A model generated the notes under the pieces. That model was not told the origin of the DNA and made no database searches. It worked only from the letters and a program-made list of their open reading frames with translations. This document shows positions 4,082 through 60,944 of a stretch of DNA of 64,000 nucleotides, one piece after another (the first letter of the stretch is position 1; every line of letters starts with the position of its first letter). A program made the translations under genes and the position numbers. Source of the stretch: Rapana venosa (taxonomy: Eukaryota; Mollusca; Gastropoda; Neogastropoda; Muricidae); NCBI GenBank assembly GCA_028751875.1, contig CM054155.1, positions 53,557,858 to 53,621,857 on the forward strand, written 5' to 3'.

Positions 4082-4122
<41 letters not shown>

Positions 4123-7478: not shown

Positions 7479-7479
7479 A

Positions 7480-35670: not shown

Positions 35671-36547
35671 ATTCGGATTCGGATTCGGATTCAGAAAGTT
35701 TATTCATTAGGCCATAGCCCCTAATGAAGGGAATAGTGAACATAAACAAAACATACACTTACAAAATCGTAAAAAATCAAATAAACAGAACAATTTAGTT
35801 ATAAATATGTAACAAAACATCATTACTATGACGTGGCAGTTTCTCTTAACTTAAATACCCTAGACAGAAAAAGAGACAAATTCCGTACCTCTTTGTGTCT
35901 AACAGATGATAAGAGTAGACTTAGTTTGAAAACACATAGCTGTCGGTAATATTTTGGCACTATATATCTTTCTCTAATATCTTGATAAGCTGGACAGCAT
36001 AGCACAAAGTGTACTTCATCTTCTTTATCTGTTTTGCATAATGGACAAATCAAATCACTATCCTTAAAGTCTTTATATCTAAAGTAATGCGTGGTCAAAT
36101 CAGACACACCTAATCTAAATCTGGTCATAATATATGTCAAGTGCAAATCCATATCAAGTGTCAAATATAATTTCAACTCATGTGAAGTGGAAAATGTTCT
36201 ATACAGACAAAATCGTTCATTACTTTGAATGTGATCCTCCCAGTCTTGCCATCTGCTGTCAATTAAACGTTGACGTAAAATTTGAATGAATCCATTTACA
36301 CTACCAACACCTTGATTTAACCACCCATCACCAAAGCCATGTTTACTTAGAAAGACACGTACATCAGTAACCCAGTTATTCTTTCCTCTAATATCTAATT
36401 CATATAACATTTTATAATCCCTAAAAGGAATTCTTGCCTCGTCCATTCGCAAAAGTCTAAGCCAATACCGTATCGTTTGTATAGCAGAATTTATGTAAAT
36501 TGGATATCTATTAGTTTTACCATAAACAAACTCATTAGGAGTGCGCC

Positions 36548-36557
36548 TATCAACGCA
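36548..36557. repeat. Target-site duplication, left copy
   Basis: tatcaacgca at 36548-36557 is repeated exactly at 37795-37804, flanking the nested LINE. With one copy counted, the minus-strand host reading frame is continuous across the junction (KRFLCVDRRTPNEF). Confidence 0.9.
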
Positions 36558-37794
36558 GAGGAGGCAGAAGAACACCTTGCAGAGGAACAAGCTGGGTTCA
36601 GGGCAGGCAGGAGCACAATCAAACAGATTTTTAACTGTCACCTCCTGATGGAAAAACATCTTCAACATCATAGAGACCTGTCCACAACTTCATCGACTTC
36701 AAGAAGGCTTTCGACAGAGTTTGGCACGAAGGCCTGTGGCAGGTCCTCAGAATGTTTGGCATTGAAGAAGGACTAGTGCAAACCATTCAAGCACTATACA
36801 ACACCGCAAGCAGTGCAGTCCTTCTGAACAATCAGGTCGGAGACTACTTCAAAACCACAGTTGGGGTCCGACAAGGATGCCTGTTATCTCCAGTCCTGTT
36901 TAATCTGTTCTTGGAAAACATTATGAGAGAGACCCTCCATGACTTCCACTCTACCATCTCCATTGGCGGCAGACCCCTCAACAATTTGCGGTTTGTCGAT
37001 GACATTGACCTCATGGGCGGAAGTAACACAGAGCTGCAAGATCTTACGACCAGACTTGAGAACAGAGCTGGAGCATATGGGATGGAGGTGAGCTCGGAGA
37101 AAAGTAAAGTACTTGTGAACAGCACGAGCAACACCACTGCTAAAATTTACATGAACGGCCAGCAACTGGAGGAGGTAGACGCTTTTAAATACCTTGGCGC
37201 TACACTCACAAAGGACGGGCATTCGACTACAGAAATTAAAGTCAGTCATGGCAACATCGTCCATGACAAAACTCACCACCATATGGAAAAGTAAAGAGAT
37301 CAGTTTCCCAATCAAACTAAAGCTCTACAAAGCCCTAATTCAGACTATGCTGCTGTACGGAAGTGAAACCTGGACATTGACTGCGAATCCAGTCATTTGA
37401 AACAAAATGCCATAGAAAACTGCTGGGCATATCCTGGAGAGAACGAAAGACCAATGAATTTGTCAAGAGCCAAATAACACGGCTGGCAGGTCCACAGGAA
37501 CCCCTTCTCACCATCATCAAGAAGAAAAAGCTGACATGGTTCGGCCACGTCACCTGCCACAACACTTTGCCAAAAACAGTACTGCAGGGAACACTCGAAG
37601 GTGGCAGAAAGAGGGGAAGACAGAACAAGTCATGGATGGACAACATCAGAGTATGGACCAGGATGAATGACTCAGCTCTACTGCGCAGAGCCGAGGACCG
37701 AGATGGATGGAGGAGGCTTACCACGGCATTGTCTTTCGTGTCTCCTCCACGACCGCCAAGGTCACGGGACTGATGATGATGATGATGATGATGA
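36558..37794 (+). mobile_element. 5'-truncated LINE nested in the minus-strand LINE
   Basis: Plus-strand RT beginning at AEEHLAEEQAGFRAGRST (about 36561-36615), then NFIDFKKAFDRVWHEGLW, VGVRQGCLLSPVLFNLFLEN (36866-36925), an active-site box reading FVDDIDLMG in place of the usual YADD (about 36990-37016), KYLGATLTKDG (37187-37220), a LLYGSETW block (near 37350), then a CHxxC-like basic tail and GRKRGRQNKSWMDNIRVW. It ends in about eight TGA/GAT units (37769-37794). The 5' end is truncated in RT. Frameshifts lie near 36680, 37240 and 37400. The endonuclease is missing, as expected for incomplete target-primed reverse transcription. Confidence 0.9.
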
Positions 37795-37804
37795 TATCAA
37801 CGCA
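37795..37804. repeat. Target-site duplication, right copy
   Basis: An exact 10-bp repeat of 36548-36557, immediately after the TGA-repeat tail of the nested LINE. Confidence 0.9.
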
Positions 37805-40430
37805 TAAAAACCTCTTTAAAGCATACAAGTGTATGGTCTCACAATGACTGGCTGCATTACCTAATCCCCATAATTCAGCACCATACTGTACAATAGGCTG
37901 TACCTGAGCACCAAATTATTTTAGAAATAACTTTAAAGAGGTATTTTGTAAAGAAGACAATCTTTTCATTATACATATCAATGCATTTTTTGCTTTACTT
38001 GTGAGATCTTTACAAGCAGAAACAAAGCTTAATCGTGTACTAAAATATATTCCTAAATACTTGTAAACATTGACAACTGGCATTATAGTATTACCATACA
38101 CCCATCTTTCTCTCGCACTCAATGGCCCCCTTTTCTGAGCACAATAATATTACTTTTACTCATATTTACTTTAGCTGAAGAGAAGTGGCAGCATGCTGCA
38201 AGTTATTTTAGTTGGGTCTGTAGACCGATGACAGTTTCAGATAACAATACAACATCATCTGCCAGCAAAAGAATAAACAATTCCAAATCATCAATAGAGA
38301 TTGTGGCACCATGTCTACCATTAGCAACAACACTCACAGCAAGTTCATTGATAAAAAGAGAAAACAGTACAGGGCTACATACATCGCCTTGCTTTACACC
38401 TGTTGTACAATTAATACAGTCGTTGTGCGCCACTTCTAACTACATTTTACAGTGGCATACATGCTTTGTATACATTTGTATAATTTACCTTTGACTCCAT
38501 TTTTCAACAGTATAGGCCACAACAGATGTCTGTTTACACTATCAAAAGTTTTTTCGAAATCAATGAAGGCTACATAAAGTTCTTGATTCAAGGAAAATTG
38601 TTTTTGTACTAATGCAAGAAGTGCAAACATATGGTCAACAGTGGAATAACCTTTTTTTAAAACCAGCCTGATGATCACCAGTGATATTGTTATATTCTAC
38701 CCATTCCTGTAATTTGTTATTTATAATAGTACTAAATATTTTGCTACTTATGTTACTCAATGAAATACCCCTGTAATTATTTGGATTATTAATATGGCCT
38801 TTTTTAAACAAAGGTAAAACAATTGATTCAGTCCAGCTCTGAGGATAGATGTCTCTATCAAATAAAGCATTGAAAAAAGCTATAAAAAAAACTGTACAAC
38901 TTGATCATTTGAACTCTGGAATACTTCACTGATGATACCATCAGGCCTAGGAGCCTTACCAGATTTTAACTTTCTCAGTGCACAAAGGACTTCTTCTTTA
39001 GAAATTGGGCGATTGATGTTGTCATCGTACTCATAACTTTCAATATCCACGTGCAAGTTTTCGCCATTTGTCTCCCTTTCTAAAAGGGTTTGAAAATGGC
39101 GAAACCACATGTCAAGACTTATTTCATTTTTAGGTTTTCTTTTAAAAGAAGCTTTCCTTACATTACTCCATAACTCTTTTTGATTTTGAATTGCGTTGAC
39201 GAGATTAGATAATAAGGCCTGATTATACTGTTTTCGTTTTCTATCCAACAAGTTTTTATACTCACGTCTACATTTTGTATATTCATGACGATCTCTAACA
39301 TTTTTGGTTTGGCGATACTTATGTAACATTTTCCTAACACTTTTTCTATTAGTTCTACATTTCTGATCAAACCAATCATTTGATCGCTTTCTATTATTTC
39401 TATTAACAGGGATACGCTTCTTCATACACTCTGCACAATCTTGCATACATTTATCAAATACATCAAATGCACTATTTATATCATTGTAAATTAGATCAAT
39501 TGCACTACTAATTTTTGTTTGAGAATGTTCTGCATTTAGAAGCTCACAAAATAGTCCAGCATTCTCATTATTCCACACTAACCTTTCTAATATCTGATCA
39601 TCGGCTGTTATATTTCTTTTATGTACATTTTCATTTGGAAAAATGACACTTAATGTTAATGGCATATGATCAGAATCGATCCGTTCAACTACGCACATTT
39701 CACATGTATCATACACAAGGGAAAAAAGTTCGCTTGATAATATAAAATAATTATTTATGCTACTTCCCAAATCAGAGATGTATGTGTAGCGACCTTCAAG
39801 GTTGCCATTACATACGCCATTTAGAATTTTCAAATCTAAAGTGGTACACATATTCAGAAGCATCTTTCCATATGTGTTCAGGCAACTATCTTCTGAGCAA
39901 CGACTGGCACTGCTGAATATTTGAACCTACATCATCAAAAGAGTTCAAAGAAATGTTCAATTATCTACCATTCAAGTCACCACAAAGAATCACATATACA
40001 TCATTTTGTAACAAAATATCAGTTAATCATTCTTCAAGTACATGGATTCCATTGTCTAAATCAAAATATGCATATAAAGGTGACCACTCAGGAGGAACAT
40101 ATATATATATAACACATCTTTCAATGTTCCAAACAGTTTTTTATCCATATGAAACACAAATATTATCATACTTTATATCAACCTTCTTCACACATGAGGC
40201 AAAACAACTTTTATTAAACACACTATACCACCTGAACGTCTTCCTTGTTTGGAAAATTTAATTGCAGGTTTATAATAAACATCATAACCTGAATAAAACA
40301 CTGCATCAAATTGTATCCATAAAAACTTTCAACAACCATACAAAATTAAATATACGCAAATAAAGAGCATCAAAATCTGATCGTTTATTTTTGAAAACCA
40401 ACCAGTCACATCATGACATAAAAGATAAAC

Positions 40431-40975
40431 GACACCTTTCTACAGAGAGTTGTGAGTCAATCGAAAGCTCATTTGAACACTTTCATCAACCGACCAGGAT
40501 CACACCGCTAACTAGTCCCATCATGATTGCAGTCAACAACTGACAATGCACTTTAATTCCCACATGTTCCATCAACAACAACACAACTTTCATTTCCCAG
40601 ACGATCCATTCAACAACAGGACACACACTTTCATTCTCATACGCTCCATCACAACTGACCACACCTTCATTCGCACATGACACAGGCTCACTTGTCAACT
40701 CTGTCAACACATGTGCATTGCGTTTTTCCGTGCTCACCAGCAATCTGCCAACATCATAGCCTATAGACGTGCAAAGGCCATCCTGAAAGCACTGTGGCAG
40801 TATATTTCAACTGTGCTTATACGTGTCGATAAAATTGTGTATAGCTACCGCTTAGGTCTATATGACTGGGCTCCCTGGAACAAAATGACACAAAGCACTT
40901 GGGGGAAGAGGGGAAAGTAGGGTAAATGAAGGGACCACAATCACCAAAAAAACTTTTGTTAGTCAACTGAACATA
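40431..40975. other. No gene seen; probable LINE inter-ORF spacer
   Basis: Between the ORF1-like relic on its right and the ORF2 on its left, both on the minus strand. It contains repeated ttcccacatgttcc / ttcattctcatacgctcc phrases (about 40555-40660). No coding content. Confidence 0.4.
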
Positions 40976-41814
40976 ATAGTCAAAAAACGCCTGAAGGCTC
41001 TCTAACCGTCCTCTTCACTAGCTTCATTCAGATGATTGTGTAGACACTTACTGCACTGACTCTTGCACACGGGAGGAAAATCCCCACGCAATGACGACAT
41101 GGGCTTCCTTTCAACCCTCTTTTCTCTGAGGATTCGTGACTTATCCTTATAGAACGTTGCATCTATGCATGATGGAGCATCATGTTTGTCACCAAGTCGA
41201 TGTACTCTGTCAACGTCAACGTTCGGTTCATGTCCAGTTTGTCAGTCAAAAATCTTGAATTATGTCCTTCACATCTTTCTCCTAGACTCGCACTTATCAT
41301 AGAAATTCAATTTGTTTCCTTCGTCCTTTTTCCTCCAGGATCTCATCCTGTTTGTCAGTCTCTGCATTCGTCTTAGAAAGTTCATTATTCAGTCACGCAA
41401 AACACTCACCTCCTGCCCGTAAATTCCCACCATCTTCCTGACGGACTGAGAAACTTCTCGAATAAGGTCCTGAAGGCCTGCTGCCACAACACCAAACTGT
41501 GTTTATAGTACTATCGCGTCCATAGGACCTCACGAACTCCTTGATTTCATCAGCAAGAGAAAGGGTCCTGGAGCGTGAAGGCGGAGGAGAGTGCCACTGT
41601 CCGATGTGCTGTTGTCTTTGCCATGCTGCGCGCTCTCCGTCCTAACCACTGTATTGGGTTTGTGGTAATGGGGGTGAGGGGTTTTGGGTTTATAATTGTT
41701 TGTGTGTGTGAGTTTGAGTGGGTTGGGCGGGAGGGGGACTTGCGACCCACCAGTAAGCATACACCGTTCTTGTACCAGAACAGCACTTCTGACGCAGGTC
41801 GCTGGTTTGGACAC
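40976..41814 (-). pseudogene. LINE ORF1-like relic upstream of the minus-strand ORF2
   Basis: Minus-strand pieces in changing frames. A start MSKPATCVRS (41814) and a GLQDLIREVSQSVRKM stretch (near 41430-41480) precede a Lys/Glu/Arg-rich, coiled-coil-like part (41280-41400). Then comes VDRVHRLGDKHDAPSCIDA (about 41165-41220), followed by FYKDKSRILREKR. DRVHRLG followed by a basic FYKDKSRILREKR stretch is typical of the RRM-like core of LINE ORF1 proteins. Its position and orientation fit the ORF1 of the LINE whose ORF2 spans 40.4-35.8 kb, giving a total of about 4.9 kb without the nested insertion, which is a normal LINE length. Frames are badly broken. Confidence 0.55.
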
Positions 41815-42905
41815 GTCTCACCGGCTTTGTCAGATCACAAGCATGATCAGGCATGGTCTTGTCTCGCAGTCTTCATGGATGTTCGGTTTTGTCTGATTGG
41901 CATTTCGACATGGTTCCGTATATCTGTCTATCATGTTCGCATCGTCACTGGAGCCTTTGGCTGTGCTCTTGTCTTCACATTACTCGTGTTAGTTCCATGC
42001 AATGTTCTAGTATGCTGTGTCGACTCAACAGTGTTTCTACCTCCAGTCATATTTTCATTGTAAGTGTCATTTTGTGTTTCCTGTCCTAATTCATTTGTAT
42101 CACCTGATACAATCACCCTGTTTGTCATTTGTTCTATAAGTCACTTATCCACTAATAAACTGGTGGTTATCTATCATCATCTGTCTGTCTTCACACCTTG
42201 GACATTTCACTTTTATCTTCTTTCAGCTGGATCACAGAGTCAGAATGGCAGATCAGGATTCCTCTTAGTTGTTGTTGTTGTTGTTGTTGTGTGTTCCCAG
42301 CTTACACCCTGGGACACCCAGAACATACACTCTGATTACTCATTCCACCGGGAGTCCTTGAGAGAGGAAGTACACGGTGAGAAGTTTGCGTGTCGATTAT
42401 TTTCAAGTTACCTCGCCATCCATAGGCAGCCATACTTATTAGCATACTGAAAGATCTCAACTTCAAGAGAGATTTTTTCTCATTAATTATATAAAGGAGT
42501 AGGTGCAGATGTAATTATGTAAAGAGCTTGTCATGGCTGAAGGCAATCTCAACACAACCTTTTAATAACGATAAGCAAACAATTTTATAGTAGGCCTTGT
42601 CATATTAGCTGGACATCAATAACTGCCACAGCTTTTGGCCTGGACCACTCAGTTTTTCCTACCTCTGAGCAGTATTTCCATCTTGTGCACTTGATCTCTG
42701 GGATGACACATGCAGTCTCTCAGGGATCTGCTCTTCTCTGACACGTCTGTGGTCTCCCTTGGTTACTATCTGGAGACAGCATGCTTGAAGTGTTGAGTTG
42801 GTGATAGTTTCCCGTCATCCAGACGATCCCTCATTCTCTGGGGCAGTATGCTAACTGCGCTCGGGGGGGGGGGGGGGGGGGGGTTGGGGGGTGGGGGTTG
42901 GGAGG
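41815..42905. other. No gene seen; contains GTT run and long G-run
   Basis: Ordinary-looking sequence without recognisable coding content. There is a (GTT)n run at 42269-42288, and a G-run of about 20 bases with nearby G-rich sequence at 42864-42898. Confidence 0.5.
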
Positions 42906-42910
42906 CTGTT

Positions 42911-43571
42911 TCAATAACCTACTGTACGATGGTGAGTGCCTGCACTAACTGGAACAAAAGAATGTCTTTCTCTGTATTCTGTCCAACTCTCTATATGCAT
43001 TCCCTCATGTCTTCCATAATCTCCAGTCTCCCTATCACGTAGTTGACCTTGCCATCGAGGGTACCAAGGAGTTCTTTCCTCACCTTCAAACATGTTTCTG
43101 CTTGATAGGAAGGGATGCCTTGGCGCATTACACTATTCCATGCCTTGTCTCTTCTTGCATAGAACATGTTTGCATATGGTAATTCCTGCTTGTCCACCTG
43201 GTTGTCTTTCTGTGTCCCTGCGTTGAAGTTGTTTCTAGGCTGCCTGTGTTTGGAGTGGAGGCCTCTTGTGTCCTTTGCTTTTCGGCTTGAATTTCCTGGG
43301 AAGATAGGACCTGATTCTCCTTCACTTCTTCTATAGCTTTGGAAGTGGTATCGCCTTTCTCCTATTGTCCATGATTTGGATTAGGAGTTTGCTGTTTTCT
43401 CTCACTTGCAGCTTGCCATTGTATTATATGCATATCTTGCCTTGGTCTCGATAAAAGTCTACAATCTCTCTCTGAGACGATGGATGTCAGGTTAACATGC
43501 AACTCATATTCCACTTGTCGTAAACCTGTCACTGAGATCTCAGTCACTGAGATTTCCATCTTACAGTCCAC
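42911..43571 (-). other. Unrecognised minus-strand coding-like stretch
   Basis: Overlapping minus-strand frames (43571-43362, 43325-43128, 43197-42991, 43093-42911) read as one broken coding region. The most protein-like part is LPYANMFYARRDKAWNSVM through VRKELLGTLDGKVNYVIGRL to MEDMRECI, predicted mostly helical and charged. The preceding part is Gln/Thr/Ser-rich. It could be an ORF1/gag-type protein of a retroelement on the same strand as the neighbouring LINE. I recognise no domain. Confidence 0.35.
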
Positions 43572-43836
43572 CTCTGTATTTGCATGAGGATGAGGTCGAG
43601 GATCCCTACGTAATTTGCCACTTTTCCAATTCGAAAGGCCTGAGCAATATCCTCATGGTGCCAGACCTTTTGAGAGTGCGGAATGGTCCGTCAGTAATCA
43701 ACTATTGTTTGTGTGGTTGTATTGTATTCCATCTTGCCCGATCACTCTTTCCTTGTACATTCATAATCTTGAATTGCAGCTTTGAGTCCACTCTCAGTGT
43801 TTTTTGAGCGTTTTTTTCTTTCCAGCTGTAGAGATA

Positions 43837-43987
43837 GGGTATAAGCCGAGGCGAGCTCAACCACTGTTACTGTATCCAAAACCAGGCAACTTTTGGTCCG
43901 ATTCGGCATCGCCCACATCGACCAAAAACCTTGCATAGTTTAATATAAAAAACTAAGCAGTTACCTGACTCAGCCCCCCTTTTACCC
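43837..43987 (-). mobile_element. Palindromic MITE-like element, copy 3 (diverged)
   Basis: Starts GGGTATAAGCCGAGG after TA (43835-43836) and ends with a decayed inverted terminus (ACTCAGCCCCCCTTTTACCC). Its sequence matches the reverse complement of the element at 63484-63630 over most of its length, including the aaccactg, ccaaaacca, attttggtccgattcgg and gccgat blocks. Length 151 bp against 147 bp. Non-autonomous; no coding. Confidence 0.75.
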
Positions 43988-44893
43988 ATCATCTCAACTG
44001 AAACCTGAAAGTATTACTAATTTTAGCTTTTGGCAATTGGTGTAAAAAACTATAAAATTCGGGAAAAATTACTAAAAAAAAATTGAACAATGATCCTTTG
44101 TCTAAGAACTAATACAACAAATATCTAAAATAAATTAAATCTAGATAATTCATCTTCTTTAATACCTGATTTAAAGCTGAATAATTTATTAGACAAAATC
44201 AAGAAAAAAAAGTGCGCAAAACGTCTCGAGTCGTCTACGCTACGCGGCAGTAGATGGGAGCTCATTACAGGAGAGCAATGTTGGAGGAACACTGCAATGG
44301 AGCTTTTGGGTAGCCGGGAAGAGTTTCTCGCGGCATTCGACGAAACTGTGTTGGAGATGCCGACACAGAAATGACAGCATTAGGTAATTCACGACACCAC
44401 AACGCATACACACACGAAACCCATAGGGACCTGTAGCTACTGCAATTCCCTACGGGGTCGATCTCCATGCCTCCATCTCAGCCTGCCTACCCCTGCCTAG
44501 CCTGACTAACCGCCTTCCGACTTCCCCACTGGGCTGCCCCCCAGAGGGCGAAAGAAAGAGTGAAAAATTAATAAATATAAAGCTTCTTAATCATGGCGCA
44601 ATATTTAGCCACGCCTCTTTTGGCGCGAGTGTTCCTTCCTATGTGCAATACTTAGCCACGAGTGTGTTAGCAAAAGATTGTGGCATGTTTGCCAATACAA
44701 CACAACAGTAGCTGCTGAAGAGCAACTGGACATATTATGTGAGGGTGTGTGTGAGAGTGTATGTGTGTCTGGCTGCATGTTTCTTGTGTGTGTTTTAAAA
44801 AATAAGCAATTGGGTTTTACCAACTACACAGTATTTGTCCTGCTGTCCTGTTTTGAGTAATATTTTACTATGCTTGAGCGTCTCAGTTTTAGT
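43988..44893. other. No gene supported
   Basis: AT-rich sequence to 44210, then a GC-richer block (44220-44560) without a convincing frame or RNA. A minus-strand frame at 44468-44265 has no recognisable motif. Protease and integrase, expected near the virus-like genes, were searched for here by eye and not found. Confidence 0.45.
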
Positions 44894-45604
44894 TTATTCT
44901 TTCTCTCTTTCTTGTCCGTCTGTAATAACATCATTCTCCCGAAGGCAATTATTAAACCCTTCTCTGTGCCTTTTCAGTGAAAAATTACAACGACTTTGAT
45001 TTTTGTTCACGGTAATCTTTTAATATGCTATTATATTTGGTGGTCAGCAACCAAACCGATAACTGTGCATGTCTCCCCACTGGAAAAGCGAGCTTAGACA
45101 AACTATTCCTTTTCTTAACAATGCACGCTCTGCTGAGCAGTCGTCTATTAAAAAAGGGTCCTGCCTATTTTCAAAGAAGCCTGTAAAGTATTGCTAAACA
45201 CTTGACTTATACCTGTCAGAGGGATTGCCTATAATAATATTTTCATCTGTCCACATAAATTTTCTCCCCTCTCAGTATGTATTTATTGTTGTGCATGTTT
45301 GGACAGAAATAACAATAACTCGAAATGAATTTTTGTACACTGTATTTGTAATAAATCTCAAACAAATACAGTCTTGCCAACAGCCAGCTGCCCGCATAAT
45401 TAGAGACAGTGTGCTTCTTTTGGTAGATAAAACCTTAGCTGGACCATTAGTAAACAACTTCTATTTAGTCTATTTTCCCTCTATGTTGAGCTGTGCATCT
45501 CACAACAATAGATATATTTTTATGGCTCATCATTTTCTTGCTCTATCTTCTATATGTATAGTATATTCCTCTGAGCCGTTTTCAATTGCGTCTTTCTGAA
45601 CCAT
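44894..45604 (-). pseudogene. Packaging ATPase relic (FtsK/HerA type) of a virus-like element
   Basis: In viruses and Polinton-type elements this ATPase drives DNA into the capsid. The start at 45604 (MVQKDAIENG) suits a small enzyme of about 237 codons, which is the normal size. The P-loop survives as VGKTVFV (about 45361-45385) in one frame, Walker B as FLIDDCSAER (45126-45155) in another, with the two catalytic aspartates visible. These are followed by GRHAQLSVWLLTTKYNSIL (about 45005-45080), the sensor-like segment after Walker B, then a short basic C-terminus to about 44894. There are at least three frame changes and several stops. The order and spacing of the three motifs, together with the neighbouring capsid-like gene on the same strand, support the call. 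Family knowledge supplies the role; activity is excluded by the breaks. Confidence 0.68.
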
Positions 45605-45619
45605 GGCAGCTTATCATCA

Positions 45620-46760
45620 TCTGTAATCTTAAGTCCCCACCCACAATGCATATTTAGATGTTAGTTATTCAATAAGCCTAACATTATGTAGATGTAAAGA
45701 TTGCTTGAACACCATAGTGGGTATCCATTGTGTTGACCAGAACCAAAGTATTGTCTTACCGGGGGCATCATCAAAGTGTTGAAAAGGAAATAGCCTGACC
45801 ATACACATGATTTGGCTGTCCTTCTATAGTACATGATAAATGTTTAATACCGGGATTAATAAACCTATCACATAAACTGGAAAAGGTTGGACTGGTTCTT
45901 CAAACAGCATTAATATTCCTTTTAAATGATCTTGCCGGAGTGTTCAGATTTATGTTTCCAACACAGTATCTGCTTTACTCTTCATTAATGTACTATTGTT
46001 AAGCACATCTATCATAATAGATGCGCAACCTTGACTGATTTTGCTGTGCAATCAAGCGTCCCAAGCTCGGGGATTGAAACAATCATCATACTCTAAAGAT
46101 ATCCTAGATATTTTGTAACTTTGGCGTCAGGGTCACTGATTAAAAACACGAGCACTGTCATTAAAGGTCATCTCATAACGACATCGTCTCTGAGTGCGCC
46201 CTGATAGATAAGGCATGTGAGAGCTGAGCAGTTCAAAGTCAAGAGGAATACAAAACCGGTTACCCATAGCTTCTTTGCTAAGGCAGCATATTTTTTCCTG
46301 TTTCCCTTATCAGCAGAACCTACTGGTGTTTTATCCCTCATCATCTTGTATGCCCTGATAACTAATATCAACTCTTTTTTTCTTTTGTCAATCCAAAATC
46401 AGTATAGGTCAAGAATATGTCTGCATTGATCTAATGAAGTAATTCTTCCCTGCCATTCTAGCTGACACTAATCTTTTTTAATAAAAGCCCGACCTAAGTT
46501 TGCTAACCACACTTTCTGTTTGGATCAATCTCCAGACTCTAGTTCAATCTGAAAAAGCAAGCCTAAGTTGTGCCGGAACAATGACACTTCTTTTCTAAAT
46601 AGAAACCTAACAGTCTAAGAATCTGATTTTTCGATCAATAGTGGAGGGTTTGTTTTGTAATCACGAATTGTTCTGTCCCTGTTATCTTTAATGCCTAATG
46701 GGATCTTTTTAAACTCCTGTATGGATCAAGGATTCTCCAATGTTTGTTGCGCTCTTTTTT
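45620..46760 (-). pseudogene. Major-capsid-like protein relic (double-jelly-roll type suspected)
   Basis: A minus-strand coding-like region directly upstream of the ATPase. The order of fragments is: a basic N-terminus (near 46640-46750), VANLGRAFIKKD (about 46475-46510), DLYxDFWIDKRKKELILV (46360-46420), a helical MRDKTPVGSADKGNRKKY stretch, then CIPLDFELLSSHMPYLSG (about 46200-46252), YEMTFNDSARVF (46150-46190), and late segments with SFKRNINAV / LMLFEEPVQP (about 45905-45935), KHLSCTIEGQPNHVYGQAI and SKYALWVGT near 45630. This succession resembles capsid proteins of Polinton/adintovirus-like elements, with the LDFELL block followed by a FND block. No structure check is possible here. Frameshifts at about 46240, 46140, 45930 and 45780. 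Length is about 380 codons. The start is unclear. Confidence 0.5.
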
Positions 46761-46794
46761 CTATAAGTAGAAAATAAAAAAACAATAATAGAAT

Positions 46795-48009
46795 ATGGAA
46801 GACTATGAACTAGATATGTATATGTGTTTTACGCCAGCTGATGATATGGGTGAAGCGACAGCCTCTGTAGCACCCTTGCATTCAGTCAGAAGAGAATTAT
46901 TAGAAAGGCAGAGTTAAAGATTTTCACTACAAGTTTGGGACAACCAACGCCAGACAAGTACAAGACCATACTGACTATGATATGGACAACATAAGACAAT
47001 CTTAAGCTGTAACTGACACAGGACAAAAGGTTGTAATAACAAAGAAAAATAACCCCCATCAGTTTTTAAGCAAAAAATACACTCTAGTCAGAGACTAAGT
47101 TAGCAATGGCAGAGAAAACTTGGTTATAAAGTGATGCACTAACTCAAACAAGACTGCCTTACGCAAGCTGTTCACAACTACAAAAATGTGAACAAAACCT
47201 ACCAACAAATAATGAAAAGTCTACCACTTGAAGACCTAGCACAGTCGGCAAACACAACAACTGAAACTATTCTAGAGTTGGAAACTAGCTTCACACAAGC
47301 AGACGAAGACACAGCACTGAAAACAATAAATGATCACCCCTACCCATGCGAGAAAGTAATGGGCTCAAATAAGCACTACAAGTATTAGAGGCGAACGGAT
47401 ATAAATAATAATACAAAGCTAGGTGATTTAGACTCCCGCATAGAACTAGAAAAAGAAAAAAGCCAAGCAGAAGCAGACAATGCAAATCTTGACCAGGAAG
47501 TAAAAGAAAGTAATCACACAGCGTCTAAAAAATCTGCAAGATGAACGCCAAGCAAGATTTAGAGGTTCTTAAACAATAACAGACAACAACTACAATCTCA
47601 GGTTATAGCAGAATAAAAGAAACAATTCTCCAATTCTTTAAGAAAACAGACACTAGCGGAAAGAATCCGGACACTGTGTTGCGAGCAAGGCATAACACTT
47701 GTCAGTATAATTACAGCATTGGGGTTTCGCTATTAGCACACTTGGTATGCGCTGACAGAAGCTCACTTCCGCCACCACCACCACACCACCACCTTCCGCA
47801 CCCACAGGCACAGGCTGGGTTTAGGAAACACTCGGCCACTTAGCTATAGCTATTAAGAAAAATTAGCCTAGAAAGTTGGCCACGCTCTTCCTGGTATAAT
47901 TGGTTCTGTTGTTAGCTGGCCATTATCAACAGCAGGAAAAGTTGTGGGATTTATGGCAGAGCATTTATGGGGCGTTACTGGTTTTAGTTGTTGGTTTTCT
48001 TCTTTCTAA
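46795..48009 (+). pseudogene. Coiled-coil protein with hydrophobic C-terminus, virus-like cluster
   Basis: The start at 46795 gives MEDYELDMYMCFTPADD..., 40 codons to a stop at 46915. The frame then jumps through a basic segment with TTSLGQPTPDKYK (46927-46966). An acidic helical part (47188-47560) contains ETILELETSFTQADEDT and LDSRIELEKEKSQAEADNA, a clear coiled coil. After another shift come AERIRTLCCEQGITLVSII (near 47655-47715) and a second hydrophobic stretch, LPGIIGSVVSWPLSTAGKVV (about 47887-47950), ending CWFSSF with the stop at 48007. Layout: short acidic N-terminus, long coiled coil, two membrane-type segments. I recognise the layout as an accessory protein of invertebrate virus-like elements, but no function is established. 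Transcribed away from the capsid-like gene and convergent with the next gene, which it overlaps by 26 bp. Confidence 0.45.
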
Positions 48010-49290
48010 AATAAAGATAAGCAAGGCCGCTTAAAACAAGTATACTTGTTAAAGCAGTTATTTCATCATAGTGACTGTCTCTTACAAGTGGAATAATTAT
48101 TGTTTTTTTTCTTTGCTCTAAGGTGGTAGTAGTTCTTTCCCTTGTTTCTTGTGTCGGACTTACTACACTTGTTTCTTGTGTCGGACTTACTACACTTGTT
48201 TCTTGTGTCGGACTTACTACTACTACTGATGGTGTATTGTTTATACTTTCATTTCTTCCAAGCTGCTCATCATCTCCAGCTTATAATAATATTGTTTGTT
48301 GTAGTTTGTAATTGTTCCTATTTTGTAACTGCATGTTGGAAGGCACCCCCCCACATATATAACCATGTCCTATAGCAAAGTCTAACCTTTAGACCATGCA
48401 TAGTGAAGAACATCTTGATAATGCTGATAGCTTTGATGGTAGGGAGGGTCAACGGCCGAGTAAATACTGTCCTTCAAGATTTTGTCAGAAAAAAGGGGGG
48501 AGGGGGATAAACTGCCTTCTGGCATCCAACCCATTGCCACCAATAATACTCGACCTTGTCAGTGCCTGTGCACCAAGCAGGCACCACACATAAGTTCGAA
48601 CAGAGTCATTTAATCCCTCTAATCCTGGTCTTGTTAACCCTTCACTCTTAGCTAAGAATAAAACGTCCATGCTTACATTGCAATTGCTCTAATTTGAACA
48701 AAGAAAACACTTGCACCACGTGAGAAAGATGTATATGAGGCCACCAGTCATAGGTTATAACCTCCTAGTGCACACCCGCACAAATACAGATCCCCATGCC
48801 ATGATTTTTGTCCTGTGTTTGTCTGAATGCAGTCTTAGAATCAATATTGAACTCATTGCACAGCCTCTCATACGCCTTCATGTTAATCCTACTATTAAAG
48901 GGATTGAAGTTACTATCAGTGGGCAGTGGGACCTGCAGCTCAGATAACACACGCCTGAAACTGATAGTACACATGAAACCTGTACACAGACTTTACTAAC
49001 TGGTTTGGATGGTTCATGTGGTCAGCATATGACACACCACAGCCCGTAGTTGCACAGTGGATAGCAAAGTTTAAGTGGTTTTGATAGAACTGTATAGGAT
49101 TAGACAACCATGCTTTCGCAGTGGCATCATCCTTAATTGGTGGGTTTAAGTATGATTTCAGTGGGTTGGGAACTTTTACTTCGAAGATCAATGTCTCTGA
49201 CACAGCAACATCTAGCTTATTAAAGGTAATAGTCTTTGGGTTATAGTGAGATCCAGCCTCGTATTTTGCATCTTTATTATATTTATACAT
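47984..49290 (-). pseudogene. Large C-terminally anchored protein, virus-like cluster
   Basis: The minus-strand start at 49290 reads MYKYNKDAKYE. The body includes NPIQFYQNHLNFAIHCATTG and VSYADHMNHPNQLVKSVYRF (about 48985-49090). After a frameshift near 48960 come FRRVLSELQVPLPTDSNF and AYERLCNEFNIDS, and after another, GLTRPGLEGLNDSVRTYVW (48590-48645) with LLGAQALTRSSIIGG. The C-terminus has three 9-residue repeats (VSPTQETSV, DNA 48141-48220), a membrane segment ALTSILVLSGLAYLYF, and RKKK before the stop at 47984. About 435 codons: an ectodomain or virion domain on a repeat stalk with a tail anchor and cytoplasmic lysines. A capsid-associated or membrane protein role is inferred from context only. 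Head-to-head with the next gene (21 bp between starts). Broken by at least three frame changes or stops. Confidence 0.5.
48141..48220 (-). repeat. In-gene 27-bp tandem repeat (three copies)
   Basis: Three near-identical 27-bp units (cttgtttcttgtgtcggac..., starting at 48141, 48168 and 48195) encode nine residues each on the minus strand, just outside the C-terminal membrane segment of the host gene. The unit is a multiple of three, so copy-number change keeps frame. Confidence 0.9.
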
Positions 49291-49311
49291 TATTATTCTA
49301 TAGTAGATAAA
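49291..49311. promoter_or_regulatory. 21-bp divergent intergenic region
   Basis: The two start codons at 49290 (minus) and 49312 (plus) are separated by AT-rich sequence containing tattattctatagtagata. It must hold, or lie inside, promoters for both genes. No specific box is identified. Confidence 0.4.
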
Positions 49312-50049
49312 ATGTTTATAACACTAACAAACATCCAGTCAGGTGTACCTGTTAAACTAGCCATTCCTATTGACAACCGCTGTCAACATAAAACAGTTGC
49401 TTTGCATGAGGTCTTCTACAAAGTATCATGGACAAACATTGACAGCAGCAACAACTGGATTAAAGTATAAGATCCTAGAACTAGAGCGTTTAATAAATTT
49501 ACTGTGCAAGAAGGTTATTATGATTTCTGCACACTGGAAAAGGAGCTCTTTCGTCCAGCTGGTATCACACTAAAACTCAACCAAGCTAGTCTAAGAGTAA
49601 CTCTACAGACTTCTTCAATAGTTAAGATGCCACAACGTCTTGCAGAAATGCTTGGTTTCAGGAGCCTATTTAGAAGAATGGTTCTGAGATGATTGGGAAG
49701 TAGCCTTTGGTGTGTGTTTATTAATATGGCGAGGACAAAACCTATGTCGGTGAAAGACCCATTGACTTGGCAGTAAACTCTTTGCTTTTTGTACACCTGT
49801 CTCAGTTAAACACAACACAAAACCAAGTGGTGACGAAGGCTTCTTCCTCATCAGTCCCTTCTGATCTACTAAGAATCCTTCCACCCTAGCAGAGCAATGT
49901 ACTGTGAAACGCAGCACAATAGCTTTACTACACTTCAATTCAAAGAGCTAGAAGAAGGCTTCCATGAAACACTCTGTATAACAATCAAAGACGCAGCACA
50001 AAGAACAGTTGACTGTAAAAATTTACATATTACATTAGAAATAAAATAA
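49312..50049 (+). pseudogene. Beta-rich protein, virus-like cluster (minor capsid candidate)
   Basis: MFITLTNIQSGVPVKLAIPI at the start gives alternating hydrophobic strands. An in-frame stop at 49468 interrupts it, and the same frame continues with VQEGYYDFCTLEKELFRPAG and ITLKLNQASLRVTLQTSS, then LAEMLGFRSLF. After a frameshift near 49690 come LFVHLSQLNTTQNQVV and a Ser-rich stretch, and a last part has HETLCITIKDAAQRTVDCKN before the stop at 50047. About 245 codons in total. The architecture (an EGxY turn, then a KLN strand, then an LGF motif) is typical of proteins encoded beside capsid genes in animal virus-like elements. The function is not established; a penton or capsid-decoration role is a guess. 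The next gene starts 27 bp downstream. Confidence 0.45.
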
Positions 50050-50076
50050 TATAAATACTAATATACATACATAACC

Positions 50077-50920
50077 ATGTCACGCGGTCCCGTAATAAGA
50101 GCACCTGAAACATGCCAAACTATTGAGCTTAAAGATCTTGGTGATGTACAAGAGTTTGAGAAGGATGGGGAGATTGGTGAAGTTTATGCTTTTGAGTACA
50201 CAAATGATGGATACTACAAGCGCACAGCAATAGAAGAAGCTAAGAAACCCTCGGTTTCCTAAACTTGAACAGTTGCGTAATGTTGAAGCTGAAGCATTAG
50301 CAGATGATTTTACTTACAAAGTAACATATAAAGCTAATAAATGGCACTTCAAACCAAGCATCGACTGGCAGATCAAGTTTGAGTTTATTAGTCCATACAC
50401 TCTCTATGCACCCGACAGAACTTTCCGTAAAGCCATAAATGCTGGACCAGTAAACATAGCACTAGCATATCAATCAGCCAGCAGAAATGAAGTAGAGATA
50501 ATAGCATTACAGAATAAGACACGTTACTTGCTTCATAGAAAAGACTCAGTGACTAAACCATCAACCACATTGCTACGATTCCTTCCATACTTTCCTCTGG
50601 ATGATCAGTACACATTGGTGTTTGTTCTGGTTGCAAGAGAAGACAGAGCTACTTTCTTGTTCATGGATGGGATTACTATTAACTGGAAAGACCTCGACGT
50701 TGATGCCCTCAGATTTGCTATTGCTATTCGGAACAGCGGCGGTGACAATGACATTGAAGGGAACATTTCCAGTAATAAAGTCAACTTGCTCCTAGACCCA
50801 CCACAGCTGACACAATTAGCATCCCTCAATCTACACCACATTGACCTTGTTGCAGTCTATTACACAGATGTTGTACTGCCCGACAATCAATTACAAGACT
50901 TACTGAATGAATACCAATAA
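50077..50920 (+). pseudogene. Unrecognised protein, virus-like cluster
   Basis: The start at 50077 gives MSRGPVIRAPETCQTIELKD and an acidic N-terminal part to about residue 57. A single frameshift near 50245 leads into a long clean frame (about 215 codons, NVEAEALADDFTYKVTYKAN to QDLLNEYQ). The second part contains SIDWQIKFEFISPYTLY, PLDDQYTLVFVLVARED and ISSNKVNLLLDPPQLTQL and is predicted mixed alpha/beta. No membrane segment or catalytic motif is visible. It is the best preserved gene of the cluster, with one frame break in 844 bp. It lies between the beta-rich gene (27 bp before) and the small helical gene (40 bp after), all on the plus strand and probably co-expressed. I do not recognise its function; a structural protein is likely from context. 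Confidence 0.5.
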
Positions 50921-50960
50921 AAATTACACACGTTTTTTTTAAACAGTATAAAAGAAGAAG

Positions 50961-51597
50961 ATGACGACTGCTAAATATCCTAAAGTTCCTAGTGCACCAG
51001 ATCCTGAAACTCTTAATGTTAATGCTAATACCTTTCGTTTGACAAACATTACACAGATGCAGCATGACATTGAGCAACAACTAGCAAAGTATACAAAATG
51101 CAGGCGTAGGTACAGATCAGCATTTACTGTGTTGAGCTCTATTACTACAGGTACAGCAACACTGTCTACAGCCGCAGCAGGAACAGGCATTGCTCTCTTG
51201 GCTACTGGAATTGGAGCTCCTGCATCAATAGCATTGGGCTCTGTTTCAATAACAGCAGGAGCCTGTTCATTTGTCACATCAGTCTTTTCGAAGAAGGTTG
51301 TGCGTAAACTAGAAAAACATGATGCTGTTGTTGCCTTGACATTAGCCAAGCTAAGCTCATTCAGGCTCATTATTAGCAAAGCTCTAACAGATTCCACAAT
51401 ATCAGAAGAGGAGTTCAAAGCGTCTTCAGGATGACTACGATGACTACAAGCGTCAAAAGTTCGACCTCCAGAACAAACAACACAAAGCTATGCCTGTGGA
51501 CATTGACTCAATAAAAAAGGAATATATAAAAAAGGGGTATCTGCTTGGCCAAGACAGTGCTTTAAAGGATCAGCTGAGTACTCTATTAAGGAGCTAA
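50961..51597 (+). pseudogene. Small protein with Gly/Ala-rich hydrophobic core, virus-like cluster
   Basis: The start at 50961 gives MTTAKYPKVPSAPDPETLNV. A helical, charged segment (MQHDIEQQLAKYTKCRRRYR) follows. Next comes a long Thr/Ala/Gly hydrophobic stretch of about 60 residues (TGTATLSTAAAGTGIALLAT to VSITAGACSFVTSVF), then a basic helical region (KKVVRKLEKHD) and ISKALTDSTISEEEF. A frameshift near 51420 moves to a frame with DYKRQKFDLQNKQ and a stop at 51595. The core resembles an amphipathic or membrane-inserting hairpin. Similar proteins occur repeatedly in invertebrate genomes near virus-like genes, in my recollection. A membrane-penetration or scaffold role is speculative. Confidence 0.5.
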
Positions 51598-51656
51598 GAA
51601 TTACCTGCGGTAGATTCACTGCTTCATACCGTAGCAAAACAAAAAAACAAGAAGCA

Positions 51657-51676
51657 ATTAATTAATTAATTAATTA
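51657..51676. repeat. TTAA/AATT run
   Basis: Five TTAA-type units (aattaattaatt...) precede a T-run between two virus-like genes. The same run recurs at 52916-52930. Confidence 0.8.
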
Positions 51677-51723
51677 ATTTTTTTTCTTACTATATGAGTT
51701 AGAGATTTTAGTTGAGGCTCAGT

Positions 51724-52190
51724 ATGGACAAAGTGTTTCAGACAATAGAGCTAAATGTTACACAAGCACAAAACGTGGTACAAAGCATTCAAGATGCAAT
51801 CGCACAAATACCAGACAACCTAAACATAGATCCACCAGTAAAGGTGCAGTTGGTTGCTGAAATTCTATACAACACAGGCAAATAAAGATGAAGAATTAAC
51901 TGTTCATGTGTCAACAACACAACAAGCACTGAACTCCTTTGAAGAGCTCAACACAACATGGGCAGATGAGATGATGCGCAACTTCGAACATTCTGCAGAA
52001 ACAGCAAGAATGAGGGGATCAGGATGGACAGTTGGTAAGGTTCTTCGCATAGAACTAAAGCAAACAAAGTTTCATCCCATTGTTGGTAGAAGTTACATTC
52101 CCTTGCCCCTGATGTTGTAGCAAAACGTGCTGTGCTGAACATTCAGAACAAAGATGGTAAGTGTTTTATGTGGTGTGTGAAGATTTTTTT
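51724..52190 (+). pseudogene. N-terminal part of a probable viral family-B DNA polymerase polypeptide, truncated
   Basis: The start at 51724 gives MDKVFQTIELNVTQAQNVV and a helical stretch to 51884. After a frameshift the frame reads EELTVHVSTTQQALNSFEEL, WADEMMRNFEHSAET, GWTVGKVLRIELKQTKFHP and SYIPLP. After another it reads VVAKRAVLNIQNKDGKCFMW, where the match stops at about 52190. The block KRAVLNIQNKDGKCFMW, with its basic-to-CFxW pattern, sits in front of the polymerase domain in virus-like PolB proteins of invertebrate genomes, as I recall the family. The catalytic palm motifs are not in this window, so the body of the enzyme is missing or displaced. Assignment rests on the N-terminal block alone. 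Confidence 0.4.
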
Positions 52191-52945
52191 TTACTTAGTC
52201 GGGACGGCCATCTCTATCCCTTGCGTTCTCCCCTCAGAAGGCCCATTTGTAATTGTGTTAGTAAAAAAAATCATCAAAAATACAAAAACACATAGTAAGA
52301 AATGAAATCTTCTGAAACTTTGTATAACATTTACTGGGTTAGTTCATACATACCCAATTGAAGCTATCTTATTTAGTCAAAAGGGCCGTCATAGAGACCT
52401 TAATTCTTATCCTTCTATTTTGCTTCTGCGACACATATGCCAAAAATGCAGTTGTTCGGCTACTCTCTACAAACTGAAACAAAAAGAGCTCGGAAAAAAA
52501 CGGATTCACCCCACAAAACGCATGCATTCGACGTAGAGACAGGCTCACAAAGCTATATTTAGCTGCAGAGTCATTGTATCATGCAGCGCCACATTGAGAA
52601 ATCTGCATAAGCAAAACTATGCGGCGAGTCCGAAACCGTCCTCTGGCTTTACACTCGATCCGCTAATAGCTGGACAGCCGTCCTTCTGAGAGTAAACAAA
52701 CACACACACATAAACAACACACTACACACACACGTCAAACACACCCTATGTTAGAGTTTGTGTCTGTAACTTTTTGATTTATTCACGTTAAATGAAAAAA
52801 AGTATACATTTTTTCCGGAATTAAAAAACGTAACTCTTTATCGAATTTTAGGAATGAGAAGAAACATATGTATAAAAAGGCGAGAGAGGGGGGGGGGGGG
52901 GGGGTGAGGGGAAAACTAATTAATTAATTTAGTGGTATCTTAAAA
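52191..52945. other. Sequence beyond the polymerase break; possible small insertion
   Basis: From the break at 52190 the sequence has no coding content. A stretch bounded by gggacggcc (52200) and the inverted-like gacagccgtcc (about 52673) could be a 480-bp insertion, but the inverted ends match over only about seven bases. A CA run lies at about 52697-52745 and a G-run at 52888-52903. Confidence 0.3.
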
Positions 52946-53440
52946 AAAATCTCTATTCCCACACAAAAAACACCGGGATGTGATGTATAGGATTGTAAAT
53001 AGTGTGATGGGTAAGAACGCACCAGGACACATCTAAGGGAAGTAAGGTCACTGACTGAAAGTGTAGGGATGTGAGAGAGACAGAAGAAGAGAGAGAGAGA
53101 TAGAGAGAGAGAGAGAATTTCTTTCATTAAAGAGAGAGTAGAGAGAAATGAGAGAATGACAAAATTATTTTATTACTAGTTGTTGAGAGTGAGAGGGACG
53201 AGAGAGAGAGAGGATGTGAGAGAGATATTGAAGTAGAGAGAGAGAGAGAGGGAGTGGAGAGAGACTTTTATTAGGGAGGAGAGATATATATATCCTTTAC
53301 TACGATCGATGAGAGATGATGAGAGAGAGAGAGAGAGAGAGAGAGTAGAGGAGAGAGAGAGAGAGAGATCATTTGACGAGAGAGAGAGAGTGAGGCGACA
53401 TAGATAGAGACAGAGGACCTCCAATGCTGCAGTCACCCTC
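52946..53440. repeat. GA-rich microsatellite cluster
   Basis: Repeated gagaga blocks interrupted by unique 10-40 bp pieces, at 53085-53130, 53195-53265 and 53315-53395. Purine-rich on plus. Small frames are Ser/Leu repeats on minus and are not genes. Confidence 0.9.
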
Positions 53441-53559
53441 AAAAAAGCTTTACTGTTAAGGAAATGGTTATGGCATCTGGACATAGAGATTTAAAAATTA
53501 TGTTTTTAGAATGTTAGTCTTTGTCTGTGTCAAGGTATTTAACGTCTTTCATAAGTTGT

Positions 53560-53735
53560 GTATTAGGACAAGGAGACAATGTTGAGAATGGATCAACATA
53601 AAAACTGGATGGCCTTGAGTGGAACGACTTGCTATGAAGCGAGAATCGCGGGGAGATGGAGGAAGCTGGTTGCAAATCTTCAGTCTATCAGGACAAATGA
53701 AGTGTAAAGGAAGGCGAATTACATGGGTGAGGGAG
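53560..53735 (+). pseudogene. LINE extreme C-terminal relic
   Basis: Plus-strand fragments, in two frames, of the typical last segment of a LINE polyprotein: an aromatic/Trp-containing GLEWNDLL-like stretch (about 53615-53640) and GRWRKLVANLQS (about 53648-53690), then a stop. About 175 bp, degraded. It is followed by GA-rich sequence. Confidence 0.4.
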
Positions 53736-54074
53736 AGGAGAGAGAGAGAGACCGAGACGAGACTGATTGAGGAGTCGACTGAAGAGAGACGAGAGAGAGG
53801 GGAAGAGTTGAGTTCAGAGAGAGAGAGAGACTTCCAGACCCACTACCTGTTCAATGGGTTTTGGCCAGTAGACATAAATACTCATTAAGAAGGGGGATGG
53901 TGGGGTCGTCCTTTAATATATGACAGCTGAAAAAAATATCTCCGATTCAGAAAACAACAGGTTGCAACGCATTTATTGTTGCACAAAAAAACATTTAAGA
54001 TTTCACAATTCAGAACTTTCTAAATACAACTTTGTATCATCTATTATTTCTAGAGTAAAAAGAATATTCGTGCA

Positions 54075-54400
54075 CAAAGAAAATCATGGACGACCCTCAA
54101 GTAAACATTGGGAAGCGGTGAGGGTGTTGAAAACTGAAGATGACCTGGCTTTCAAGAATGCTGTCTTATGCTAATAGCGCGAAAACAGATAATTTACAAC
54201 TGACCACAGACATATTCGGCTTTCCATCTAGCAGTTTTTAACAGAGAGAATCCAGAAAATCGTTTAGTAAACTTTCTCTCTGTCATGTATATAATGGACA
54301 GAAGCAAGAAGGAAAATGTTCATTTTCTTCTTGAAAACCTCTTGCGCATAGTTTCCAAGGGTTTACACCTGTACTATGCATATTGCATATTGCCATATAT
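54075..54400 (+). repeat. Dispersed repeat, copy 2
   Basis: Aligns by eye with 28713-29035 in the same orientation (ggtgagggtgttgaa, gaagatgacct, the aggtaaatc/agagaatcc block, the ataaagga/ataatgga block, cattttcttc, then catattgca). The preceding 54000-54074 resembles LINE-type sequence. Divergence is roughly 20-25% by eye. Confidence 0.65.
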
Positions 54401-54424
54401 TTCATTTATTACCAATCTGTAGGG

Positions 54425-54570
54425 GAGTGATGGCAGGGTGTGCTCGTTTTTTTTTCTCCAGGACCTCTCATTATTTCAGTGAAATGATTCTACGGAACTT
54501 AGTGCAGCATGAAAGTGTCAAAAGTAGGAGGTCACAACATAAACAATCTAGATATGGCGGATAATTGATG
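54425..54570 (+). pseudogene. Fragment of the RTE-like LINE RT
   Basis: Parallels 26895-27015 of the RTE-like element: a degraded GxRQGC block, then ILRNL...HESVK and GGHNINNL leading to the lost YADD site (here DMADN). The same family is therefore present twice in the window. Confidence 0.65.
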
Positions 54571-54639
54571 ATAAATCTAGGCTGGTACCATCACATATGC
54601 TATATGTGCAATTTTCATGTCAAATGAGTATACAATTGA

Positions 54640-55010
54640 CTAAAATCAAACAATTCGCTTGACTTTCATTCAAGAAAACTATTCTTTTAAGTTTATTATA
54701 CAATCTTCAATAGATTACTCTTTCATACCCTGTGCGATTCTGCTAGTGCTAACACTATGAAACCCTAATTAAGTCTGTCTAAACGTGCTCTTAAATGGTC
54801 TTCTGAAGAAGGGAGGATAGGAGATAGAGAGAGATAGAGAGATAGAGGAGGACTCAGTTAAGAATATTCTTCCTCTACAACCATAGTCTAAGAATTTATA
54901 ACAAAGGCCTCATGTATGTTTAAGATTAGGACGGAAACTGTTCCCTCATCCTTAAAAGACATGTTCACAATGAATCATTCCAGAAATATTGAAAAGTCGA
55001 AGTATATAAC
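54640..55010 (+). pseudogene. Possible LINE thumb/C-terminal relic
   Basis: Frames with KKTILLSLLYN (near 54675-54710), a KRALKWSSEE segment (near 54780) and RTETVPSSLKDMF with NHSRN (about 54925-54990) resemble the C-terminal part of LINEs of the 28.3-kb family. A GA-rich interruption (54815-54855) separates them. Weak. Confidence 0.3.
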
Positions 55011-55154
55011 TTCTAGTGTCTCTAATCTCCACAAACTGATTTGTTTTTCAATTCTAGCAGTACTTTTACTCAGGACCTGTGTGTGGAATGCTCCCTTCCT
55101 GATTCATTTAGACAACCAATCATTCTCTCATTCTTCATCTCGCATCTGCTCCCA

Positions 55155-55565
55155 TTACCCCATCGGGGTGTAGGGGCACTGGACAATGACGATCGTTGCA
55201 CAGATGCTCCTCCTGTGCGGTGGTTCGTGTGCAATGCCTGGGTTGTGGAGAAAGCTCTTCCCTGTCCATTCGTGAGTCTTGTTCTCTGTCTTGCCTCGCC
55301 CTTTCTTTCTTCTTTTGCACTGTTCCCTGCAGTATGGTTTAAGACAAGCCCAATCTGGATCTATTAACACTGTTTTGTTACATCTGAAGCTGCCTTTTTT
55401 TGACTGTGTCAGCAGTTTTTCGTTAGTGCTATACTTGTTTGGTGATGGCTTTGTAGGACTTCGTTGTTGGTAGTGTGGTCCATGTATGAAATGCCAAGGA
55501 GTCCTACTTAGGCATCTCTTCTCTAGAGCCTGGATCCTCACTTTGTGATCTGCATTCAATGTCCA
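55155..55565 (-). pseudogene. Minus-strand LINE C-terminal fragment
   Basis: A minus-strand frame reads WTLNADHKVRIQALEKRCL (near 55510-55565), then a TPWHFIHGPHYQ segment, ELL/KLLTQSKKGSF, REQCKRRKKGRGKTE (about 55280-55330) and HEWTGKSFLHNPGIAHEP. This is the order of the C-terminal region of endonuclease-RT LINEs: NADHxxRIQALE, the aromatic H-rich block, then a basic GKxxRGR-like stretch and a W-containing end. Open over about 134 codons. RT is absent on its 5' side. Confidence 0.65.
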
Positions 55566-55569
55566 GAAT

Positions 55570-57115
55570 TAGCCCAATCATTAACAAAATCTTCATAAGT
55601 CATGTTTTTTATCCACCGGATGCCTAAAAATAAAAATCCAAACTGATTTGTTGAAACAAAGTAAATACTCTCCTCCCTTACAATAATACAAAAGTATCCT
55701 CTTTGTCTGCCTTTCCTCTCTCTCTCTTTATGAGTGTGAAGGTTTTACTTGTATTTATCCCGCATTGTGTTATTGCAAACTGACTTCTGAAATGATTTTT
55801 TTCCACTATCCTACTCCTCTAGTCTCACTCTCCTCCTCTCCTTTTATGGTTTGCATAATTAGATTTTTATTGTCGTGTTTTAACAATTAGTAGTTTTCCT
55901 GGTGAAATTTTTATTCATATTTAATATATCAGTTTTATTGGTATGTTGACTGTATTTCAGTTTAATGACATATTTTCATTTTGATATCTTGTATTTTGAT
56001 TTGTACCAATTTATGTATGCTGATTTCCAATGTGCAGATGTCCTTTGTTATGACTTATACATTATGTTCAAAAAGATTTTGAGTTTAGGCTTTGATGCAT
56101 AGGCGTACGCAAAGTGTGTGTGTGTACGTGTGTGGTGTGCTGTGTGTGTGTCGTGTGCACGAGTACTGAGTCTATGGGGATGCCAAAATACTTAGTGGTT
56201 TTTATACGAAGTTTGCTTTATACTATATTGTTTTGTGTGTTTACTATTGCTGTTGCTTCTTTAAAAGCCCAATGAATTTTTGACGTTTTTTTTTTTTGTT
56301 AGCCAAAATGATACTAATTACGTGGCTACGTTATCTTTATTATTTATGGAGGTTTTGCTTTGTGTGGTCTCTTATGGTTTCGGGTTGGGGGGGGGGGGGG
56401 CCCTCGGAGGGGGGGAGGGGGGGGTGATTTTTCAGCTGTCCTATCTCCCCTTAGTTGTTGCGTTTTGTTTATGCTACTTAGTTTCTTTGCTATTTTTTCG
56501 GTTGTTTCGTGTTTTGCTTTTCTTTCATTTTTGCTATTTCTATCTCTCTTTCGCTTATTTTTGTGGGGGGTTTTTGTGTAGATATTGTTTTCAGTATTAC
56601 TTTGTGAAGTGTTTTGTTTGGGCTGATTTTTTAATATGTTCTCCCTAAGGGCCGGTACTGGATGTTAAAATATGCCATGGGTTGCTTATTCATTATCCTA
56701 GAAATTTGAAGATTTTGTCACATTTAGTTAAGGCTAATTTCCGGTAGGGGCGTTTCTCTATTGCGGTTTTAAAGAGGGTGGATCAGCATTTCGTTTACTA
56801 TGTGGGATTGTGCCTGGGGTCCTGATTTCTTGGTGTTGGGTACTGATATGCAAAGGTTTTCTGCTAACAGCTTGTTATAAGAAAGTTTCTACCAGTGCTT
56901 GAGTCTGTGGTTGCCTGTGTATACTCTTTTTATTTGCTACTCCATGGCTTTAGTACAGCTGATGAAATGCTCGTTTAGTTAAATCTTTATCCCATCTCGC
57001 AGCTGAATAGTCTGGTTAGTTTAAATGGTCCAGTCTATAGATTTCCGGCAAAAGAGATAGATAGAGATAGATGAGAGAGTAGAGAGGAGAACTCTTTTCA
57101 GTAAGGGGCTCGCAT
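55570..57115. other. No gene seen; GT run and long G-run
   Basis: AT-rich, ordinary texture. GT-rich run at 56115-56160, G-runs at about 56387-56430 and a GATA/GA-rich stretch near 57055-57085. A plus-strand frame at 56280-56648 is Phe/Leu/Cys low complexity around the G-run and not convincing. Confidence 0.5.

Positions 57116-60940: not shown

Positions 60941-60944
<4 letters not shown>

Follow-up and report, generated by a model that had tools for sequence, protein, structure and literature searches.

Polintons are large elements of 15-20 kb whose gene set comprises a protein-primed DNA polymerase (pPolB), an rve integrase, an FtsK-like ATPase, a protease and jelly-roll capsid proteins, according to excerpts of PMC4028283. 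Adintoviruses are in turn defined by an OTU-PolB and a hexon (PMC11071296, in excerpt). Polinton polymerases present a vOTU-like protease domain ahead of the catalytic part, and in a Stylophora coral polinton the terminal protein is encoded by a separate gene (both from excerpts of PMC11071308). According to excerpts of PMC8097293, the vast majority of Maverick copies in vertebrates are degraded, and up to 2021 no Maverick particle had been observed. The window analysed here, that is, the whole stretch of 64,000 nucleotides from contig CM054155.1, contains at 44985-52173 the remains of about eight closely packed, frame-broken genes, found as pieces of open reading frames (ORFs; Table 1). The likely explanation is that they are what is left of an endogenous, medium-sized DNA virus of Polinton/adintovirus-like type, truncated and in decay, in a eukaryotic, probably animal, genome. 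As described in part for the animal Polintons/Mavericks (Polintoviricetes; PMC4028283; PMC8097293), in which a protein-primed PolB and an FtsK-like ATPase are accompanied by uncharacterised proteins, a probable PolB block and ATPase motifs are present here. Unlike those elements, the locus carries three protein families, A1, A2 and A3, without any Pfam domain, and its gene order differs from the two-module order of the vertebrate Mavericks (PMC8097293, in excerpt).

The three families provide the strongest evidence. A1, A2 and A3 each have intact homologs whose alignments to the window run through its frame breaks, and this sequence homology shows that all three are real protein families without a name. 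A1 has 6 homologs among 457 candidates (275-283 aa, 34-63% identity, best E 6.3e-86), and its window copy contains one frame break. For A2 there are 9 homologs at E <=1 among 277 candidates (best 1.9e-52, weakest 1.2e-3), and for A3 41 among 53, all at E <=1.9e-9 and the best at 3.7e-68. A precomputed Pfam domain was found in 0 of the 56 homologs, tblastn with all 56 gave no match in the window outside 47900-51700, and profile searches with window pieces returned other rows only at E >=0.24. A word search of the open literature names no such gene family, although words suit protein families poorly and subscription papers fall mostly outside such a search; we do not claim that the families are unpublished.

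A3 is the best-conserved gene of the set. Its relatives are numerous, with 268 sequences in one cluster; they come from ENA, JGI and other assemblies, where the contigs reach 1.76 Mb, and three scans of IMG/VR and one of GTDB confirmed none there, as expected for an element of eukaryotes. The best homolog, P0016, is unbroken and shares 97% identity with the window copy over the first 111 aa; the last stretch is also nearly identical and the middle carries several breaks, so that the window copy runs through three frames and its aligned stretches contain five stop codons. A tree of 36 rows, built from the window piece and the 35 homologs (of 41) that have 340 aa or more, joins the window copy to P0016 with support 100/99, within a 13-row clade (97/99). 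The alignment held 34 members, with 7 of the 41 excluded (P0019, P0026, P0030, P0037, P0038, P0039 and P0049; 236-353 aa), and hydropathy detected a C-terminal membrane-like segment in 24 of the 34, the other 10, P0016 included, being below the threshold. The AlphaFold model of P0016 is confident and mainly helical at residues 11-230, has a linker of low confidence at 339-383 and finishes in a C-terminal helix (382-409). The linker-coding DNA of the window (48141-48220) contains a 27-base unit in three exact copies, fewer of which are present in P0016. Together, model and hydropathy suggest that A3 is probably a membrane-anchored protein, held by its C-terminal helix. A role as double jelly-roll capsid protein was considered and rejected because the predicted fold is mainly helical with a C-terminal membrane helix. 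A search of BFVD with A3 gave 0 matches at E 0.001, and in a Pfam scan of the alignment the best match, a weak one, was to a tri-helix bundle at E 0.0022, seen in 8 of the 34 members.

A1 is beta-rich, with a predicted model of low overall confidence whose C-terminal part resembles galectin/concanavalin-type sandwiches in their common arrangement only; the best Pfam match of its alignment (7 members) is weak, at E 0.098. A2 is probably a membrane protein, as 8 of 10 aligned rows show a membrane-like hydrophobic segment. The Pfam scan of its 10 members was also weak, the best match being an RTX N-terminal domain at E 0.00056 in 5 of the 10 (18.4 bits in the first member, against a cut-off of 26.8). 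Two short JGI proteins, P0008 and P0014, whose longest contigs have 1090 bases each, correspond to consecutive parts of A2 with 88-100% identity; they perhaps represent another copy, with breaks of its own, in this host or a closely related one.

The relic of a probable packaging ATPase consists of three motifs in order on the minus strand, GQLAVGKT (45393), FLIDD (45154) and WLLTTK (45053), each in a different frame. The three in this order turn up a single time in the window, and neither 60 shuffles of 9201-64000 nor 300 of 44894-52190 produced them, with motif forms and spacing limits that were set after the motifs had been seen. The triple is real, beyond chance. Directly upstream, the ORF pieces at 45661-46398 present what we take to be motifs of a Polinton-type capsid protein. 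At the other end of the element, the block at 51724-52173 is presumably the N-terminal part of a PolB, and we assume that the motif at 52138-52173 is an OTU-like cysteine motif; ending at such an OTU-type motif would be a likeness to adintoviruses, whose hexon, penton and chromodomain-bearing integrase were not recognised here. When this motif of the window was turned into a DNA pattern, it matched in 0 of 100 window shuffles. The short stretch that precedes the presumed cysteine motif would suit a terminal protein encoded by a separate gene.

Concerning the element as a whole, the genes are separated by short gaps, as is usual in viruses: the divergent starts at 49290 and 49312 are 21 bases apart, the next plus-strand genes follow after gaps of 27 and 40 bases, and at 47987-48031 two genes overlap by their tails over about 45 bases, provided that the candidate plus-strand gene there is correct. 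An earlier note on this DNA had counted eight compact, AT-rich genes from 44894 onwards. About eight gene remains are in fact recognisable, only three of them certain by their homologs; the start that it gave lies beyond the last recognised ATPase piece (44985), and the AT-richness did not hold, as GC per 1-kb bin is 0.36-0.41 in the element and 0.25-0.48 in the window.

Table 1. Positions in the window of the genes and gene remains assigned to the element
Feature	Position	Strand	Remarks
Probable packaging ATPase relic	44985..45393	-	Walker A, Walker B, third motif; three frames
Possible major capsid protein pieces	45661..46398	-	Directly upstream of ATPase; ORF pieces
Probable single gene; middle charged, end with hydrophobic segments nearby	46795..48031	+	Pieces; hydropathy maximum 2.05
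Family A3, ~410 aa, helical, variable linker, C-terminal membrane helix	47987..49290	-	41 homologs; frameshifts and stops in the window copy, relatives unbroken
Broken gene, no assigned family, divergent from A3	49312..50049	+	ORF pieces
Family A1, beta-rich, ~276 aa	50077..50920	+	6 homologs; one frame break near 50250
Family A2, ~200 aa, hydrophobic middle	50961..51597	+	9 homologs; at least one frame break near 51418
N-terminal part of probable protein-primed PolB, then cut off	51724..52173	+	Motif at 52138-52173

Several results weigh against a Polinton/adintovirus-like virus. The ATPase pieces, which are short, the capsid pieces and the PolB block gave no significant match in Pfam or PHROGs; the capsid pieces gave none in PDB either, and one ATPase piece compared with PDB retrieved rows only at E >=0.33. 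The PolB pattern found only 4 contigs in IMG/VR; their open frames look phage-like and include no Polinton-like PolB. No terminal inverted repeat is present in 40800-56000 (only 9 short simple-sequence inverted pairs), and neither an integrase (rve included) nor an Ulp1-type protease was matched in the scanned pieces (10+10 of the element, then 9 of the flanks and 1 of the element). Furthermore, the lengths of the source contigs do not match among the three homolog lists, which thus give no sign of linkage of A1, A2 and A3 in the relatives. The missing integrase, protease and repeats weigh little, however, because the element is cut off at both ends. The profile check that the earlier note had advised for the ATPase and capsid regions was likewise negative, with pieces of 49-76 residues that give such tests little power. 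The packaging-ATPase relic of that note stands on the ordered motifs (0 of 360 shuffles) and lacks a profile match, and its capsid-like protein and viral PolB block found no backing in these searches. From its Maverick/Polinton/adintovirus fossil we retain a decayed integrated DNA virus, the narrower label being no more than plausible.

The remains could alternatively come from a different type of eukaryotic DNA virus, or from a plasmid-like element, with just a part of this gene set in common; examples would be an integrase-less Polinton-like virus, a bidnavirus-like element and a piece of some larger virus. The lack of integrase, protease and terminal repeats in the scanned parts suits this origin, as does A3, with its fold other than a jelly roll and its empty BFVD search. 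Nevertheless, gene absence is weakly informative in a copy with both ends cut, and the combination of ATPase motifs with a presumed protein-primed PolB is that of the Polinton/adintovirus set (PMC4028283; PMC11071308; both in excerpt), so we regard such an origin as quite unlikely. An origin of the open frames by chance or from host sequence, with coincidental motifs, would agree with the failure of the pieces to match Pfam and PHROGs significantly, but it is hardly credible: the best homologs exclude it for three of the eight genes, refuting A1, A2 and A3 as chance frames, and the ATPase triple appeared in no shuffle.

A different question is whether the copy is recent and possibly intact, with most of its frame breaks being errors of an unpolished long-read assembly. 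The near identity of both ends of A3 to the unbroken P0016, with several breaks in between, points in this direction, and so does an unbroken run of 54 C at 60942-60995, unusual and perhaps itself an assembly artefact. The high identity of A3 together with its many breaks fits either recent decay or assembly error. Against this reading, the polymerase block stops and termini were not found in 40800-56000, the ATPase and capsid pieces look more degraded than A1 and A2, and P0008 and P0014 resemble another copy that is broken elsewhere. We consider a recent copy with such assembly errors unlikely. All these data suggest that the locus is a genuine remnant of an integrated virus-like element, probably Polinton-like, with conserved genes outside Pfam. 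An integrated DNA virus in decay accounts for the tight packing of the genes, for the order of the ATPase motifs and for the three conserved families without Pfam domains. By its visible features, membership of the Polinton/adintovirus group is plausible; with both ends of the copy missing, the defining features of that group are neither fully shown nor excluded. The three families with their conservation, the predicted anchor of A3 and the ordered ATPase motifs come from the data themselves, whereas we infer which genes encode PolB and capsid, that the eight genes belong together in a single element, that the host is an animal, and all functions.

By analogy with known Polintons, the living virus would integrate into the genome, its linear genome would be copied by the protein-primed PolB and would be pumped into the capsid by an FtsK/HerA-type ATPase. 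The plus-strand run would end in the polymerase, with virion genes beside it on both strands. The C-terminal helix of A3 would hold it in a membrane, its helical head on the inner side; A2 would be another membrane protein, and A1 would be a beta-sandwich protein of the surface or vertex. Taken together, A1, A2 and A3 would suggest a membrane-containing virion or assembly on a host membrane, and the virion module may thus include membrane proteins. Membrane-containing double jelly-roll viruses (PRD1-like) have small membrane-anchored virion proteins under the capsid; the likeness that we see to them is in workings only and membership is not claimed. It is possible, but doubtful, that there is a widespread animal Polinton-like lineage with membrane virions, in which A3, through a helical head without an assigned fold, a variable linker and the C-terminal membrane helix, ties the capsid to the membrane, A2 is a second membrane protein and A1 a lectin-like surface protein. 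The element is ordinary as a kind, and its interest lies in the membrane-anchored family A3. Should A1, A2 and A3 turn out to be conserved structural proteins of such viruses, they would offer concrete targets for showing whether particles exist and whether they contain a membrane, as well as profiles with which to search a portion of eukaryotic genomes that lies outside Pfam.

The two other genes of the element gave less information. The probable gene at 46795-48031 has no significant Pfam match, and any family resemblance in it is conjectural. For the broken gene divergent from A3, Pfam gave no significant match and an IMG/VR scan with one piece was empty.

Finally, LINE-type (long interspersed nuclear element) domains are also present in the window (Pfam RVT_1, E 3.5e-27; Exo_endo_phos_2, E 2.9e-11), and it is therefore eukaryotic nuclear DNA. 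Broken LINE-type retroelement sequence occupies 25250-27799 and 34622-39926, where one endonuclease and one reverse transcriptase domain were confirmed and the extent was judged visually. At 280-9000 there are long, irregular, TTC-rich satellite-like stretches built from the unit TTCTTCTTCGCAA and its variants.
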